A stretch of 38,987 bases of DNA from contig CABMGU010000014.1 of assembly GCA_902385765.1 (NCBI GenBank), forward strand, positions 1 to 38,987, given 5' to 3'. Below, piece by piece: positions 7,625 through 37,112 of this stretch. The DNA is from an uncultured archaeon (GTDB taxonomy: Archaea; Nanobdellota; Nanobdellia; Woesearchaeales; ARS49). Below the pieces are notes generated by a model. The model did not search any database and was not told the origin of the DNA. It worked only from the letters and a program-made list of their open reading frames with translations. A program made the position numbers and the translations under genes. Position 1 is the stretch's first letter, and each line of letters begins with the position of its first letter.

Positions 7625-7665
7625 GAATTTCTTCTCCCCACGCAAGGCAAGGGGAGAAGAAATTC
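7625..7665. repeat. Intergenic palindrome copy 1: perfect 15-bp stem, 11-nt loop
   Basis: GAATTTCTTCTCCCC-ACGCAAGGCAA-GGGGAGAAGAAATTC. Confidence 0.95.
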
Positions 7666-8277: not shown

Positions 8278-8318
8278 GAATTTCTTCTCCCCTTAGCTTG
8301 TATGGGGAGAAGAAATTC
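8278..8318. repeat. Intergenic palindrome copy 2: perfect 15-bp stem, 11-nt loop
   Basis: GAATTTCTTCTCCCC-TTAGCTTGTAT-GGGGAGAAGAAATTC. Confidence 0.95.
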
Positions 8319-27557: not shown

Positions 27558-28043
27558 ATGGCGAGTATAACCGCCCCGGATTACAAGGAGGCGAATGGCC
27601 CAATAGTTTTCTTAGCTGGTCCAATACAGGGCGCAGAGGACTGGCAAAGAACCGCTATTGAGCTGCTAACAAGAACAAATCCTGCCGTTAATGTTGCTTC
27701 TTCAAGAGGGGATTACTCCAATAGAAAATTTGATTATGATGCCCAAGTGGATTGGGAAACCCATTATCTCAAGGAAGCGGCAAAAACCGGTTCAATATTG
27801 TTCTGGTTGGCAAAAGAAAAAGAACACATATGTGACCGGGCATTTGCACAAACAACCAGATTTGAACTCGCTGAATGGGTGACGAAGTACGGGTGTGATA
27901 AAAACCTGAGATTATCAATAGGTATCGAGCCTGGTTTTTCCGGAGAAAGATACTTGCGAAGAAGAATCGGGCAGGATCATCCTGAACTTCAAATATATTC
28001 TAAATTAGAGGACGTTTGTACAGCGGCTGTTGGAAAGTTATAA
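27558..28043 (+). CDS. Nucleoside 2-deoxyribosyltransferase-like protein
   Basis: IVFLAGPIQGAEDWQRTAIELL...FAQTTRFELAEWVTKYG. Confidence 0.8.
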   Translation: MASITAPDYKEANGPIVFLAGPIQGAEDWQRTAIELLTRTNPAVNVASSRGDYSNRKFDYDAQVDWETHYLKEAAKTGSILFWLAKEKEHICDRAFAQTTRFELAEWVTKYGCDKNLRLSIGIEPGFSGERYLRRRIGQDHPELQIYSKLEDVCTAAVGKL

Positions 28044-29354
28044 TTTTTCTTTATCTTTGTTTCTCGCCGTCATCCTCTGTTTTGCAACAGCATAATTCAC
28101 TGGATTTTTTACTTTAGAACAAAAGTTGTCTGGCTTGCATACGCCTAAGTCTGCCATATATGCCTTGTTATCGCAGTTTGGCGGTAATACTTTTTTCTTC
28201 ATCATTTTGTGATATCTTAACTGTCCCTGTACCAGTACCTCTCTTAGTGGTTCTGCGTTTTTCTTGTTCCATTCTGTGAGATACTTCTCTGCCATCTCGT
28301 AGCTCCATCCGGCTGATGTTAAGAAATTTATTAGAATAAACAGTGCTCTTTTTCTTCCGTCTTTCAGTCCTTGTGTTATCAGTTGTATGCAGGGCGGGAA
28401 GTATTGTTCTGGTACTGCTTCTGTTATCGGCTCGTACTCTTTTTTTTCTGTTAGTTCTTTGAGTTCTTGCGGTGTTTCTTGGCTTGTTTTGTAGTCGAAT
28501 GCGTTTACTATGAGTTTTTTTGCTTCGCCTGGAACAGCTTTTTCCAGATAAACAAGTTTTGGCACGACCTTTTCAGGTATTGCGTCTTTTTTGTCAAAGC
28601 TCAGTATTTCTTCCGGCTTTATTACAACGCTTACCAGTCCTGATTTTTCGTTCAGGGAATATGGCATTCTGTACAAATGTCTTGTTGCTATTAGTATAGT
28701 GTCTATAGATAATACTGAAAACGGCTCTAGTTGTCCGTCTTTTATTATCTCGCTGACTGTTTTCTTTACTTTTTCCGCTATTTTTGCAGGTGCATCTTGC
28801 AGTAGTCTTTGTGCTAATGGTTCTTTTATCATCGCCTGCAGGTACATTGCTATTTTTCTTGGTCCGTCTGGAAACAGGTCTTTGATTGGTTTTCCGTTGA
28901 CGGTTTCAGGGAATGCTTCATAGGGTACTCCTATGTGGAATCCGTGGTTTCCTGAGAATTTGACAGAAACATTTTTGATTCCGTGGTGTTGTAGTGCCTG
29001 TACGATTAAATCTGCTGCGATTTTTGAGTATTCCAGTTCAGGGCAGTCTATGTCCAGTATCAAATCCCATCCTATTCGCAGGTTGTTAAGGTCTTCTGGT
29101 TTTGCTCCTGTTGTTACCTGCAACGGATTGTTCCACAACTCCTCAGAGCAGTGGAAGCTTGTTGCTCCTTGTTTTACTGCTTCAAGAACGTCTTTTGGGT
29201 ATTTTAGCACGTCTGGTCTTTTGCCATACCCGGTGCCTCCATAACTGACCGCCACTTCTTTGTGGTCTGCTGATTGGACTAATGCTTCTTGTATTTCTGC
29301 TCTTTTGTAGTATTTCAGCAGTGTGCTTATGTGTATTTGTTTGTAATCCCCCAT
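28038..29354 (-). CDS. priS: DNA primase: PriS catalytic domain fused to PriL C-terminal Fe-S-like domain
   Basis: DLILDIDC and VKFSGNHGFHIGVP (PriS); PPCIQ...PPNCDNKAYMADLGVC...CSKVKNPVNY (PriL-CTD-like Cys set). Confidence 0.88.
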   Translation of the reverse strand: MGDYKQIHISTLLKYYKRAEIQEALVQSADHKEVAVSYGGTGYGKRPDVLKYPKDVLEAVKQGATSFHCSEELWNNPLQVTTGAKPEDLNNLRIGWDLILDIDCPELEYSKIAADLIVQALQHHGIKNVSVKFSGNHGFHIGVPYEAFPETVNGKPIKDLFPDGPRKIAMYLQAMIKEPLAQRLLQDAPAKIAEKVKKTVSEIIKDGQLEPFSVLSIDTILIATRHLYRMPYSLNEKSGLVSVVIKPEEILSFDKKDAIPEKVVPKLVYLEKAVPGEAKKLIVNAFDYKTSQETPQELKELTEKKEYEPITEAVPEQYFPPCIQLITQGLKDGRKRALFILINFLTSAGWSYEMAEKYLTEWNKKNAEPLREVLVQGQLRYHKMMKKKVLPPNCDNKAYMADLGVCKPDNFCSKVKNPVNYAVAKQRMTARNKDKEKL

Positions 29355-30506: not shown

Positions 30507-31340
30507 ATGTGGAATCAGGTTAAGACGGTTTTATTGCTTGGATTGATGTCTGGTTTAGTTCTTGCTGTAGGTTATTTCTTTGGAGGAAAGACTGGTCTGA
30601 TTTTTGCTCTTGTTTTGTCTGTTCTCATGAACTTCGGAATGTTTTTCTGGTCTCACAAGCTTGTTTTGCTGATGTATCGCGCAAAACCGGCTTCTAAGTC
30701 AGAGTATCCTCATTTGCATAGGATGGTTGAGGAGATTGCCAGAAAGGCAGATCTTCCAAAGCCGGCTGTTTACATTATTCCTACAGAAACCCCTAATGCA
30801 TTTGCTACTGGTCCTTCTCCCAAGAAGGCAGTTGTTGCCTGTACAGAAGGTATTCTTAAATTGTTAAACGACAATGAATTGAAGGGTGTGCTTGCTCACG
30901 AGCTTTCCCATATCAGGAATCGTGATATGCTTGTTTCTACTATTGCGGCTACTATGGCTGCTGTTATTTCTACTGTTGGTCGTATTGCTATGTTTTCTGG
31001 TGTGAATGACCGTGACAGGGGTGTTCATCCTCTTGCTTTGCTTTTGCTGGTTGTTGTTACTCCGATTGCTGCTTTGCTGATTCAGCTTGCTATTTCGCGT
31101 TCAAGAGAGTATTTGGCTGATGAAAGTGCTGCAAGAACACTAAAGGATTCCGCTGGTCTTGCGAATGCCTTGAACAAGTTGGAGAACGGCTGTAAAGCCC
31201 ATCCTTTGCATATGGGCAATCCGGCTACGAGTTCTTTGTTTATTGTGAACCCGTTTACTGCTAAAGGTCTTGTTTCTTTGTTCAGCACGCACCCCAACAC
31301 TCAAAGTCGCATCGAGCGTTTGCAGAAACTGAAGTTTTAA
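30507..31340 (+). CDS. htpX: Zinc metalloprotease HtpX (M48)
   Basis: GVLAHELSHIRNRDMLVSTIAA; SREYLADESAA. Confidence 0.95.
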   Translation: MWNQVKTVLLLGLMSGLVLAVGYFFGGKTGLIFALVLSVLMNFGMFFWSHKLVLLMYRAKPASKSEYPHLHRMVEEIARKADLPKPAVYIIPTETPNAFATGPSPKKAVVACTEGILKLLNDNELKGVLAHELSHIRNRDMLVSTIAATMAAVISTVGRIAMFSGVNDRDRGVHPLALLLLVVVTPIAALLIQLAISRSREYLADESAARTLKDSAGLANALNKLENGCKAHPLHMGNPATSSLFIVNPFTAKGLVSLFSTHPNTQSRIERLQKLKF

Positions 31341-32710
31341 TAAGGTCTTGTGGCGATTTCTTTTATGAGTTTTGCAATTTTTTCTCCTACGCCTGCGACT
31401 TTTTGCAGTTCTTCTTCGTTTGCTGTGAATACTTTTTCAACGCTTCCGAAGCAGGTCAATAACTCTTTTGCCAGGTTTGGTCCAACGCTCGGCAGCGAAC
31501 TAACAAGATATTCCTGTTGTTCTTTTATCGTCATTGGTTTTCTGTCTGCGTGTGGTGCGAAGTCTTTTTTGTCTTCTTGTTCCCGTTTTGCAATCGTTAA
31601 GAGCAGTGCTGCGCTGTCTTTTTCATCTTTTGTGTAAATTATTGGTATTCCGTAGCTGATGGCTATCGTGCTTAGCATTCCTCTGATTGCATTCGGGTGT
31701 ACGTTTCTTGCAGAGTACAGGTCTTGTGTTCCTTGTATTATTATCAGTGGTCTTTCATAGCTTTTTTTCAATGTCTTCAGCTGTTCGAGCAGTCTTCCGT
31801 CTATTATGCTGTCTACGAAGTCTTGTGCTGTTTTCAGTTCTACTCCGGCTCTTGAGCTTAGGATGTAGTCTGCGCATTGGAGCATTTCCAGTTTTACTCC
31901 TACTCCTAATTCCACAAGTTCTTTTACTGTTCCTGTGCTTTTTTCTCTGTAGTCTGCGAATATTTTCACGTTATTGTCGAAGTTTGCGAGTGTTGGCTGT
32001 TTTGGCGCGAGTTTTGTTGTGAGTTCTTTGCGCATTTTCTCAAGCACATACACCATTCTATTTTCTTTGTGTTTTGCGCTCCAGCTGTATGCTTCGTCTC
32101 TTGTTCCTTTTGTTACGAATATTGTGACTTTTCCTTTTTCCTGTCTTCCTGTTCTTCCTCTTCTTTGTATGTGTCTTATCGCGCTTGGTATCGGCTCATA
32201 GAAAACTACTAAATCCACTTTCGGTATGTCCAGTCCTTCTTCTGCCACGCTTGTTGCTATGAGGATGTTGAATAGTCCGTCTTTGAACATGTCAAGCATT
32301 TCTGCTTGTTGTTTCTGGCTTAGTCCTGTTTCTCCTTTTTTGGCTTGTCCTACGAATACTTTTGGCAGTGCTCCTTCGTGTTTGCTTAATTCTTCTGATA
32401 GTTTGACTGCAGTGTCTCTGTACTGCGTGAACAGTATTATTTTCATTAGTTTGTTTTGTTGCAGTTCTTTTGTTACAAATTCTACAAGCGCTCCTACTTT
32501 CGGGTGTTCTGGCAGTTTTTGTGAGAGGATGAATGCGCTTTTGAATGCTAAATCTGCTGTTAAATTCTTTACTGCTTTTGTTTTGCCGTTTTCTGCTTGT
32601 TCGTATAATCCTTCAAAGTATTTGTTCAGTGAAGCCACGCTCTGTGTTTCCAGTAATTCTTGTGCGTGTTGTGCTTTTATGATTTCTGCGAGCAGGCTTA
32701 TTGCTTTCAT
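31337..32710 (-). CDS. hef: Hef/FANCM-like helicase domain 2 + XPF-type ERCC4 nuclease + HhH (C-terminal part; same frame open up to 32776)
   Basis: ATSVAEEGLDIPKVDLVVFYEPIPSAIRHIQRRGRTGRQ; FADYREKSTGTVKELVELGVGVKL...VELKTAQDFVDSI; C-terminal SVGPNLAKELLTCFGSVEKV HhH. Confidence 0.9.
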   Translation of the reverse strand: MKAISLLAEIIKAQHAQELLETQSVASLNKYFEGLYEQAENGKTKAVKNLTADLAFKSAFILSQKLPEHPKVGALVEFVTKELQQNKLMKIILFTQYRDTAVKLSEELSKHEGALPKVFVGQAKKGETGLSQKQQAEMLDMFKDGLFNILIATSVAEEGLDIPKVDLVVFYEPIPSAIRHIQRRGRTGRQEKGKVTIFVTKGTRDEAYSWSAKHKENRMVYVLEKMRKELTTKLAPKQPTLANFDNNVKIFADYREKSTGTVKELVELGVGVKLEMLQCADYILSSRAGVELKTAQDFVDSIIDGRLLEQLKTLKKSYERPLIIIQGTQDLYSARNVHPNAIRGMLSTIAISYGIPIIYTKDEKDSAALLLTIAKREQEDKKDFAPHADRKPMTIKEQQEYLVSSLPSVGPNLAKELLTCFGSVEKVFTANEEELQKVAGVGEKIAKLIKEIATRPY

Positions 32711-32776: not shown

Positions 32777-33508
32777 TTATTTTGAGAGGAATGTTCCTTT
32801 TATTCCGTATTGTTTTAATTGTTCTATCTTGCTTTTGATGCATTGTTGCAGTAAGCGTTGTACTTTTTTGAATTCTTCCGGCAGTTCTACTTTTTTCCAT
32901 TCTATGTCTATTGGCTGCACGTATGGTTCTACGTCAGGGTCTTTTTCTGTTCTTATTTCGACTGCTTCTATTCCTAGGTTGTTGCATACTTCTTCTATTG
33001 TTGTTGTGTCGCTTCCAGGGCTTGCTGTGAGTGCGAGTATTCTTGGCCAGTCTGCTTTTCTTTGGTATTGTTTTGCTAAAAACACATAGCTGTAGTCTCC
33101 TGTTGCCCTGTGTGCTTCGTCAAATACCAGCAAACTGACTTTTGAGATGTCTATTTTGTTGCCTATGATGTCGTTTTCAAGTCCTTGCGGTGTTGAGAAG
33201 ATGATTTGTGCTGTCTGCCAGATTTCTGCTCTTTTTTCTGGTGCTACTTCTCCTGTGAACAATACAAATTTTTCTTCCGGCAGTTCAAGTGCTTTTTTGA
33301 ATGTTTCTAAATGCTGTTCTGCGAGCGGTTTTGTTGGTGCTAGAATGAGTATTTTTGATTGCGGGTACTGGCTTAGTCTTTGTGCTGCCAGCAGTAGTGC
33401 TACTCCTGTTTTTCCCATGCCTGTCGGCAGTACTACCAGTGTGTTTTTCATCGCCGCAGTGGCGAGTATTGTCTCCTGGTATAATCTTGGCGTGAACCCC
33501 CTTAGCAT
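32777..33508 (-). CDS. hef: Hef/FANCM-like helicase domain 1 (N-terminal part), ended by in-frame TAA
   Basis: LVVLPTGMGKTGVALLLAA, VFDEAHRATGDY, LALTASPG; codons after TAA continue DLLQLQAELHAKISAGEKDYEAMKAI in the same frame. Confidence 0.9.
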   Translation of the reverse strand: MLRGFTPRLYQETILATAAMKNTLVVLPTGMGKTGVALLLAAQRLSQYPQSKILILAPTKPLAEQHLETFKKALELPEEKFVLFTGEVAPEKRAEIWQTAQIIFSTPQGLENDIIGNKIDISKVSLLVFDEAHRATGDYSYVFLAKQYQRKADWPRILALTASPGSDTTTIEEVCNNLGIEAVEIRTEKDPDVEPYVQPIDIEWKKVELPEEFKKVQRLLQQCIKSKIEQLKQYGIKGTFLSK

Positions 33509-34614: not shown

Positions 34615-35292
34615 TTATTTATTCTCTTCAGGCTTTAAATACTTTTTTAAGAGTGTTCTTATTTCGCGCTCGTGTCCTGCTCCAACCACTGCAACGATGT
34701 TCGCTTCAGGTTGCACTTTTTTCAGTATTGCGAGTCTTTTTGCCATGTACTCGTTTCTTTCTTCTACAAGTACGCGGTACACGCTGGGATATCTTTTTTT
34801 GACGTCTTCTATTAATGTATTTATGACTTTCTGTGATGGTACTTTTTCAAGGTCGAATTGCACTCCTTTTTTGAGGACGACGCCTTTGAACAAATCAACT
34901 GCAAACGTGAATTTTTCTTTCCAAGTGAGCGATTTTGAGAATCTTTTGAGTGTTATGTTTATGTCTTGGTCGATGAGAGCTACTCTTGCTCCGACCTGTT
35001 GTGCTGCTGCTACAGCCTTGAGCATTTCCGAGCCTGGCGCTACCCCTACTTTTGCTCCGAGTTTCTTTTCAGCCCATGCTCCTATAATTGCAAACAGCCA
35101 GCCTTTTAGTCCTACTTTTCTTATGTCCCTGTAGCTTATCCGCTCTTTTCCCTTGTGAATGAGGGCGTATAACCTTTTTGCGTCGAGTTCTATTGCTACA
35201 ATTTGTGGTTTATTGTCTAGAATTGTCTCTTCGACCTTCTTTAAGCTCTCTGGCGAGATGTGTGAAGTTCCTACTATTTTGATGTATGGCAC
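34615..35292 (-). CDS. TraB/PrgY-family protein
   Basis: IVGTSHISPES...VAIELDAKR...ALIDQDINITLKR...VVGAGHEREI. Confidence 0.9.
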   Translation of the reverse strand: MPYIKIVGTSHISPESLKKVEETILDNKPQIVAIELDAKRLYALIHKGKERISYRDIRKVGLKGWLFAIIGAWAEKKLGAKVGVAPGSEMLKAVAAAQQVGARVALIDQDINITLKRFSKSLTWKEKFTFAVDLFKGVVLKKGVQFDLEKVPSQKVINTLIEDVKKRYPSVYRVLVEERNEYMAKRLAILKKVQPEANIVAVVGAGHEREIRTLLKKYLKPEENK

Positions 35293-35742: not shown

Positions 35743-36156
35743 ATGGACGTTGTTTCTCAGTTAAAAGAATGGGTGCAGATTTATTTGAAAAGCCGTGATA
35801 TTCTTCAGAAGTCCATTGCTGGTTTTGAAAGCCGGGATGATGATTTTGTCGTGCATAAGACTACTGGCGATGTTCCTTTCTTTATCCGTCCTGAATTTGC
35901 TGACGTTGATGAGATTGTTCAGAAAGTTTCAGGTAATGCTGGTCTGGTTGTTTTGAATACGAAAAAGAATGTTGATTTTGTTGTTTCTAACTGGGACAGG
36001 CTTTCCAAATTGCAGGGTTTGTGCATTTATTTTGTTAATCCGAAATCGAACGATAAGTGGCTGTTGTATCCTTTTACTCATAATCAGGTTACTGAGAAGG
36101 CTTCTTTGAAAAGAGGTCTTGAAAGTTTGTTCTCGATGGTAGCACCTTATACGTAA
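35743..36156 (+). CDS. Hypothetical protein
   Basis: MDVVSQLKEWVQIYLKSRDILQKSI...; ATG at 35743 preferred. Confidence 0.7.
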   Translation: MDVVSQLKEWVQIYLKSRDILQKSIAGFESRDDDFVVHKTTGDVPFFIRPEFADVDEIVQKVSGNAGLVVLNTKKNVDFVVSNWDRLSKLQGLCIYFVNPKSNDKWLLYPFTHNQVTEKASLKRGLESLFSMVAPYT

Positions 36157-36168
36157 ACAGCTGAGTGG

Positions 36169-36238
36169 TTGCCGCTCTGCCCAAGCCTTGCTTGGGTGAA
36201 TTTTCTTCTCCCCTTGCAGATGCGGGGAGAAAAATGTC
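36169..36238. repeat. Divergent palindrome copy 3 with TTGCCGCTCT flank and CCCAAG-CCTTG-CTTGGG module
   Basis: GAATTTTCTTCTCCCC-TTGCAGATGC-GGGGAGAAAAATGTC (36198-36238); TTGCCGCTCT also at 7604-7613. Confidence 0.8.
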
Positions 36239-36304
36239 GGAAATCTTTGATTTCCGAGCACACTCGGAAATTCGCGCAAAAGGCATTGTTATGCGAATTT
36301 CCGA
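36237..36304. repeat. Palindrome cluster A: four alternating TCGGAAAT/ATTTCCGA units
   Basis: TCGGAAAT-CTTTG-ATTTCCGAGCACACTCGGAAAT... and 12-bp TCGGAAATTCGC/GCGAATTTCCGA. Confidence 0.9.
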
Positions 36305-36341
36305 TGATTCAGTCGTAGACCAGAGCGCCCAGAAAATAAAA

Positions 36342-36671
36342 TTATACGTAAGTTAAAACCAGCACGACTGCAATTCCTATTGCCAGTCCGAAGAGTATTT
36401 CTGTCATGGTGTGCTGTTTTCTTATGTGCACTGCGTCGTGCATTACGATTGCTGCGAGAACATAGGATATCGCTGCTGCCGGCGACATATATCCTTCCTG
36501 GATTGTCATTGCTGTCGCCAGTGCTCCTACGAGTGCTGAGTGTGAGCTCGGCATTCCTCCTACCTGCCAGAAGGCTGTTGTTTTTCTGCTGATGAGGATT
36601 TTTACTGACTGTGAAACCAGCCACGCTATGCCGATACTGAGTAAAATGTTCATATCTTTTATCAATTGCAA
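36342..36671 (-). CDS. DUF212 / divergent PAP2-family membrane protein, compact
   Basis: GGMPSSHSALVGALATAM and MHDAVHIRKQHTMTEILFG. Confidence 0.85.
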   Translation of the reverse strand: MQLIKDMNILLSIGIAWLVSQSVKILISRKTTAFWQVGGMPSSHSALVGALATAMTIQEGYMSPAAAISYVLAAIVMHDAVHIRKQHTMTEILFGLAIGIAVVLVLTYV

Positions 36672-36690
36672 TTCAGAATAAAAAGCTTAT

Positions 36691-36808
36691 CATACGCCAA
36701 CCGGGAATCCCTGAAGCTTGCATCGCAAGCGAGGGGGACAGGAGAAGCTCTGCTTCGACTGGATGTTCGATTCCCGTTTTAAATGCACAGCATACGCCAA
36801 CCGGGAAT
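36691..36808. repeat. 18-bp direct repeat of tRNA-Gly 3' end bracketing 82 bp (candidate att scar)
   Basis: CATACGCCAACCGGGAAT at 36691-36708 and 36791-36808. Confidence 0.9.
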
Positions 36809-36863
36809 TGAACCCGGGCGTCGACCTTGGGAAGGTCGCATCATACCGTTAGATCATTGGCGT
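36793..36863 (-). tRNA. tRNA-Gly (anticodon CCC)
   Basis: Cloverleaf: ACGCCAA acceptor paired with TTGGCGT, anticodon arm CGACC-TTCCCAA-GGTCG, T arm CCGGG-TTCAATT-CCCGG; CCA not encoded. Confidence 0.93.
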
Positions 36864-36895
36864 GCATTTCGTTTTTTTCTTTTTTGCTTAATACG

Positions 36896-36984
36896 TCGGA
36901 AATATACTGCTCGTATATATTATATTTCCGAGTGTCGGAAAGCTTTGCTTTCCGAGCATGCTCGGAAATGCAGTGCATTTCCGA
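36896..36984. repeat. Palindrome cluster B: six alternating TCGGAAA/TTTCCGA units
   Basis: 11-bp TCGGAAATATA/TATATTTCCGA; TCGGAAAG-CTTTG-CTTTCCGA; 20-bp palindrome TTTCCGAGCATGCTCGGAAA; TCGGAAATGCA-G-TGCATTTCCGA. Confidence 0.92.
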
Positions 36985-36991
36985 CACGTGC

Positions 36992-37067
36992 TCAAGAACC
37001 ACCGATCACATCCTATTCATCATGCACTGTCGTTACATGCCTCAGTCAATTGACTGGTGGTTCTTGA
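36992..37067. repeat. 12-bp inverted repeat with 52-nt spacer containing a 14-bp palindrome
   Basis: TCAAGAACCACC (36992-37003) / GGTGGTTCTTGA (37056-37067); CAGTCAATTGACTG 37043-37056. Confidence 0.85.
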
Positions 37068-37112
37068 CATATTCTTCGTCGCAACTTTCAACCAGTATAC
37101 ATTATAGTAACA

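Follow-up and report, generated by a model that had tools for sequence, protein, structure and literature searches.

The REP superfamilies and RAYT enzymes described so far are, to our knowledge, all bacterial. REP sequences carry a GTAG or CGTC tetranucleotide beside the foot of the stem (PMC3733652), and REPINs, inverted pairs of REPs, are moved in bacteria by RAYT transposases (PMC3116915). A survey assigned to Archaea only the IS200-type subclass of Y1 enzymes, and the same work treats hairpin recognition of the IS200/IS605 type (PMC6006769). Three further systems resemble the elements described here. SMR-A of Haloquadratum walsbyi shares with them an archaeal host, a length of ~110 bp, inverted terminal repeats, absence of target duplication and insertion into other mobile elements, and its mobilisation is enigmatic (PMC3119063). 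PATEs and other IS200/IS605 derivatives also carry a palindrome close to each end, insert without duplicating the target and have a short target sequence on their 5' flank (PMC3119063). The mitochondrial double hairpins of Allomyces and sponges likewise consist of two adjacent hairpins in scattered copies that vary between close species, with no flanking duplication and with stem changes that keep pairing (PMC2800124).

The window studied here is a stretch of 38,987 nucleotides, contig C14 of a 1.04 Mb draft genome (G000), and its DP2 polymerase, MCM and SecY genes are archaeal. Like REPINs and BIMEs, its hairpin pairs are made of two short imperfect palindromes inverted as one unit, are interspersed and gene-less, insert into genes and fall into sub-families with alternative complementary stem bases. 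Unlike them, they have foot pairs that vary freely and an archaeal host. The membership of the REP/BIME family proposed in an earlier note on this sequence is not supported, as there is no GTAG/CGTC tag and no Y1 (RAYT-type) transposase was detected in the window's genome; the sequence preceding TC on the left is A-Y-A-TG in a set of 85 elements, and GTAG is absent. SMR-A may be the nearest archaeal analogue, likened by form rather than sequence, although it strongly prefers the palindromes of PATE/IS605 elements (PMC3119063), where our junctions show only a weak enrichment in hairpin loops. PATEs differ in having no terminal inverted repeats and in sharing their ends with IS605 transposons (PMC3119063), and no such parent was found here. 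Nearest in shape, again a likeness of form only, may be the mitochondrial double hairpins, which differ in their organelle genomes, sequences and proposed RNA intermediate, with no bulged-foot rule in the part of that account available to us (PMC2800124).

Within the window, TCGGAAAT occurs nine times against 1.1 expected, a count reached in none of 100 shuffles, and eight of the nine copies lie in two clusters, A and B (Table 1). The earlier note had correctly located both clusters, their 8-mers and a 35-mer in each. The two 35-mers differ at four positions, of which two exchange T-A for G-C across the CTTTG stem, a compensatory change as had been proposed. The remaining two (linker GCACAC in A, GCATGC in B; CA to TG) are compensatory as well and belong to the foot of hairpin 2, their partner lying just beyond the 35-mer (TG 36305-36306 in A, CA 36985-36986 in B). 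The alternating palindromes ascribed to cluster B are present, but their extent had been drawn too small, as the outer partner hairpin TCAAGAACCACC...GGTGGTTCTTGA belongs to the same cluster. Cluster A was also real, although the larger insert around it, which additionally carries a CTCCCC...GGGGAG hairpin (36209-36230 region), had been missed.

Table 1. Positions of the cluster A and cluster B features in the window.
Feature	Position	Strand	Remarks
Cluster A hairpin pair, 72 bp	36235..36306	.	foot rule holds on both sides; DNA fold
Pieces of the cluster A pair	foot TG 36235-36236; hairpin 1 36237-36257; linker GCACAC 36258-36263; hairpin 2 36264-36304; foot TG 36305-36306		
Larger insert around the cluster A pair, 185 bp	36157..36341	.	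absent from G001 orthologue; similar cores elsewhere
Structure of the larger insert			outer stem GCCGCTCTG...CAGAGCGCC, CCCAAGC hairpin and CTCCCC hairpin
Left direct repeat TTATACGTAA beside the larger insert	36147..36156	.	read from sequence; one related copy in G001
Right direct repeat TTATACGTAA	36342..36351	.	read from sequence
Cluster B outer pair, hairpin 1: foot CG, stem-loop 36896-36931, bulged G 36932	36894..36932	.	
Cluster B inner pair, 54 bp, TGTCGG...GACA, within the linker of the outer pair	36933..36986	.	zero-shift junction match to C50 paralogue
Cluster B outer pair: linker remainder (CGTGC), hairpin 2 36992-37067 TCAAGAACCACC...GGTGGTTCTTGA, foot CA 37068-37069	36987..37069	.	

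The unit consists of two abutting hairpins, XY-TC[hairpin 1]GA-n-Y'X' followed by XY-n-TC[hairpin 2]GA-Y'X'. Every hairpin starts with TC and ends with GA, and at the foot of its stem two base pairs, usually TG/CA, covary, while a single base bulges towards the partner hairpin. Among the six joining bases, the second and third pair with the two bases to the left of hairpin 1, the fourth and fifth pair with the two to the right of hairpin 2, and the first and sixth bulge. Left and right feet are paired in 82 and 81 of the 85 elements respectively, and in 25 and 23 of the 26 elements found without restriction of the linker sequence; none of 20,000 shuffles reached the values of either set. The foot types seen are TG/CA, CA/TG, CG/CG, TA/TA and TC/GA. 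TC..GA spans run from 48 to 172 bp in the 85 elements (mostly 85-115), and the cluster B outer pair, when folded by itself as DNA, forms two stems that each contain one bulge, matching the foot rule. In an alignment of 27 partly related sequences, picked for similar hairpin lengths and with the end of hairpin 1 fixed by the search motif, 95.5% of cells are paired, falling to 22-54% once the partner is slid by one to three columns. The inner stems of this alignment contain 77 cells changed on both sides and about eight that are G-U, a scarcity that fits DNA better than RNA. The hairpins do stand in alternating pairs with compensatory stem changes, as had been proposed. Against the further suggestion that units can pair with several partners, fixed pairs are favoured, with own-partner foot pairing in 48 of 52 cases.

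Copies of the element are found well beyond the two clusters. TCGGAA N5-35 TTCCGA has 25 matches per strand in the window's genome, compared with five for the reversed control, and the longer TCGGAAA N5-35 TTTCCGA again has 25 per strand, compared with none; the congener G001 has eight TCGGAAA...TTTCCGA matches and G014 has 16. A hairpin-linker-hairpin pattern matches 23 of the 242 genomes of the order, while its reversed control never does. Scanning ~85,000 prokaryotic species with this pattern returned at least 105 stretches, nearly all of whose listed titles are Candidatus Woesearchaeota. The pattern fixes just the first bases of the second hairpin, and among the matches listed the second hairpin is present in 97 of 103 from Woesearchaeota and in none of the six from bacteria. 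A partial literature search found no published description of such Woesearchaeota repeats, a weak indication of novelty, and the group goes unmentioned in the RepRanger survey of archaea. The sole IMG/VR contig with the pattern (L356 5188-5230) could come from a virus or be an archaeal contig filed there by mistake.

Cluster B is composed of two pairs, the 54-bp inner one lying inside the 6-nt linker of the outer one (36894-37069), between G and CGTGC. Removing the inner pair (TGTC...GACA) leaves GA-GCGTGC-TC and thereby restores a regular linker, whose CG and TG are paired with the CG just before 36896 and the CA just after 37067, respectively. Contig C50 carries a paralogue that has outer hairpins of the same kind with an uninterrupted linker, and the cluster B junction matches this paralogue at zero shift in 29 of 32 bases. 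The congener G001 shares flanking genes with the window (95% identity in a TPR protein), is missing the cluster A insert in its entirety as well as the tRNA-side insert, and has other hairpins in its cluster B spacer; it also carries a pair at the site corresponding to window position 34615, where G000 has none. When elements were removed foot to foot and the junction was slid over the empty homologue, zero shift was the best match in six of eight informative comparisons, for example L347/L289 (47/48) and L299/L337 (43/48), whereas the L254/L274 and L231/window junctions matched best at other shifts; two comparisons of cluster A with core elements fall outside these eight. Filled and empty sites differ by a precise insertion with no target duplication, and the zero-shift junctions do not display the target-site duplication of DDE-type MITEs. 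The nesting and the copy number suggest gain rather than loss at the sites that differ, and the hairpin pairs are very probably mobile in Woesearchaeota.

The insertion sites share a motif on one side. In 72 of the 85 elements there is an A at both -5 and -3, within a left flank that is T-rich from -10 to -7 and then reads A-Y-A before TG; the 85 right flanks have nothing in common after CA. Junctions lie in the loops of hairpins of at least 10 bp in four of 78 cases (about 1% in the control), and given so weak an enrichment, strong targeting of palindromes was rejected. Copies also interrupt genes: one pair sits inside an ORF read, by eye only, as HicA-like, and another breaks a Y1 transposase gene (L418 1663-1710, G085:C112; L418/L421). 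More copies were found genome-wide, with pairing kept, and the earlier note's idea of an interspersed palindromic family survives the refutation test that the note had itself named; the main property of the family, precise insertion and nesting, had escaped it.

We put at about 60% the probability that both clusters represent a non-autonomous mobile element of ~50-175 bp, which an enzyme acting in trans moves in the form of single-stranded DNA hairpins. The combination of no duplication and a one-sided target motif is the outcome of IS200/IS605-type single-strand transposition. In our model the element comprises two abutting imperfect hairpins that start with TG and end with CA, or with another self-complementary foot. 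These hairpins would serve as recognition signals, read as folded single-stranded DNA, and the trans-acting enzyme would cut at the feet. The element would then be joined into exposed single-stranded DNA, preferring a T-rich stretch followed by AYA on its left, much as in IS200/IS605 and REPIN transposition; the host need not benefit from the copies. The single-strand mechanism itself we hold at slightly below even odds. More tentatively, the pairs might represent an archaeal class of hairpin-pair transposable element of their own, which would move as single-stranded DNA through an enzyme other than a RAYT or an IS200-type TnpA, one that recognises a bulged foot whose two base pairs are free to change while paired.

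Searches for Y1 transposases, TnpB, IS110 and resolvases gave no match in the window's genome, a draft of 90-95% completeness in which absence is no proof. Y1 (PF01797) had no match in either G000 or G001, both drafts, and G001 (90-95% complete) has a single IS110 match and no other of the four. By raw counts, 13 of the 24 genomes that bear the element have a detected Y1, as do 14 of the 52 others in the first sample. No examined Y1 locus has footed TC..GA hairpins as its ends, which would be expected of ends shared with a tnpA/tnpB transposon; for this reason, and as neither was detected in the window's genome, Y1 and TnpB were rejected as the cognate enzyme. IS110 and resolvase were set aside as movers on account of their rarity among element-bearing genomes, and an autonomous copy with a gene between the hairpins was likewise discarded, as lone hairpins in the examined loci proved mostly to be pairs with a partner below the strict criteria of the search. 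Hairpin 1 begins 2 nt from the left end, so that there is no space there for an IS608-style guide sequence.

The same mobile element could also have travelled by another route, through a recombinase that makes no target duplication (IS110-/IS607-like), a viral or plasmid HUH Rep, or an RNA intermediate. The missing target duplication fits these routes too, Y1 transposases went undetected in 11 of the 24 element-bearing genomes, and an RNA intermediate is suggested for the Allomyces double hairpins (PMC2800124). We nevertheless consider them unlikely: IS110 is found in two and resolvase in six of the 24 bearers, with neither in G000, and G-U pairs are rare in the stems, unlike the usual result of selection on RNA.

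A very improbable alternative is that the arms are complementary mainly by mutation, through replication template switching (quasi-palindrome correction), in which case covariation would say little on function and the apparent insertions would be replication slips at palindromes. Two-sided changes do far exceed one-sided ones (77 against 8 cells), as one-step correction would give, and the selection for folding that had been proposed is affected accordingly: pairing is kept, but copying of one arm onto the other in a single step could equally keep it. Such copying leaves unexplained the position of the bulge, the conservation of the ends TCGGAAAT and TCAAAAA in many families, the target motif on one side only and the junctions exactly at the feet, and it can act together with transposition of a mobile element, with which it is compatible. 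It is hard to credit a host function under selection, as transcription terminators, mRNA-stabilising hairpins or small RNAs, even though the hairpins are stable, their places are mostly intergenic and such roles are ascribed to bacterial REPs (PMC3733652). With a crude ORF caller there is no enrichment between convergent genes (3/46 versus 52/366 gaps), on which ground terminators were rejected, and the copies are missing at the orthologous place in the congener and also occur within ORFs. At gathering thresholds Rfam matched only tRNA-Gly in the window, and a structured RNA family was rejected for want of any other match.

With the hairpin pairs read as mobile elements, Woesearchaeota, a large group of tiny archaea most of which are uncultured, gain a REPIN-like element whose defined ends, junctions and target motif allow the moving enzyme to be sought directly. 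The elements also bear on haloarchaeal small mobile repeats and mitochondrial double hairpins, whose mobilisation lacks explanation. In practice, a copy can disrupt a gene, may fragment an assembly and, because its stems covary, can pass for a conserved structured RNA.

Several other inserts were observed alongside the hairpin pairs. The insert that hosts cluster A appears to be of a second kind, with a possible 10-bp target duplication in the TTATACGTAA repeats. A second interspersed element of ~95-185 bp, with an outer stem GCCGCTCTG...CAGAGCGGC and a TTCTCCCC...GGGGAGAA hairpin, has copies at window 36157-36341, L195 5028-5140, L194 8782-8950, L196 4396-4497 and L084 3775-3890, all absent at the orthologous places in G001; the cores at the last four loci have no TCGG pair. 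Two further stretches of the window, 7625-7665 and 8278-8318, contain similar CTCCCC hairpins. A third interspersed element of ~150 bp, with AAAGTTTGATCAAA...GCTCCTCG, is present or absent between congeners (L195 963-1114 and 9017-9161; L198 827-974; L155 1241-1420; L128 1640-1800) and also occurs in G014.

Inserts are also found at the 3' ends of tRNA-Gly (window 36691-36808), tRNA-Glu and tRNA-Asp (L074 2430-2610; L084 2420-2640), each flanked on both sides by a 17-18 bp copy of the tRNA end, which looks like site-specific integration of gene-less DNA. The tRNA-Glu and tRNA-Asp inserts contain TCGGAAACTTG hairpins, and the tRNA-Gly insert is absent in G001. Genes resembling tRNA-Leu that ARAGORN did not call (L082 2610-2740 and 9890-9995; L111 1430-1660) seem to have an insert in the T-arm, which in L111 contains a TCGG hairpin. 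Elsewhere in the window, a single ORF (28038-29354) with weak matches to the small and large archaeal primase subunits possibly encodes a fused primase, and a Hef-like helicase/nuclease is split between two ORFs, one with the N-terminal part of the helicase (31337-32710) and the other with its C-terminal part and the ERCC4 part (32777-33508).
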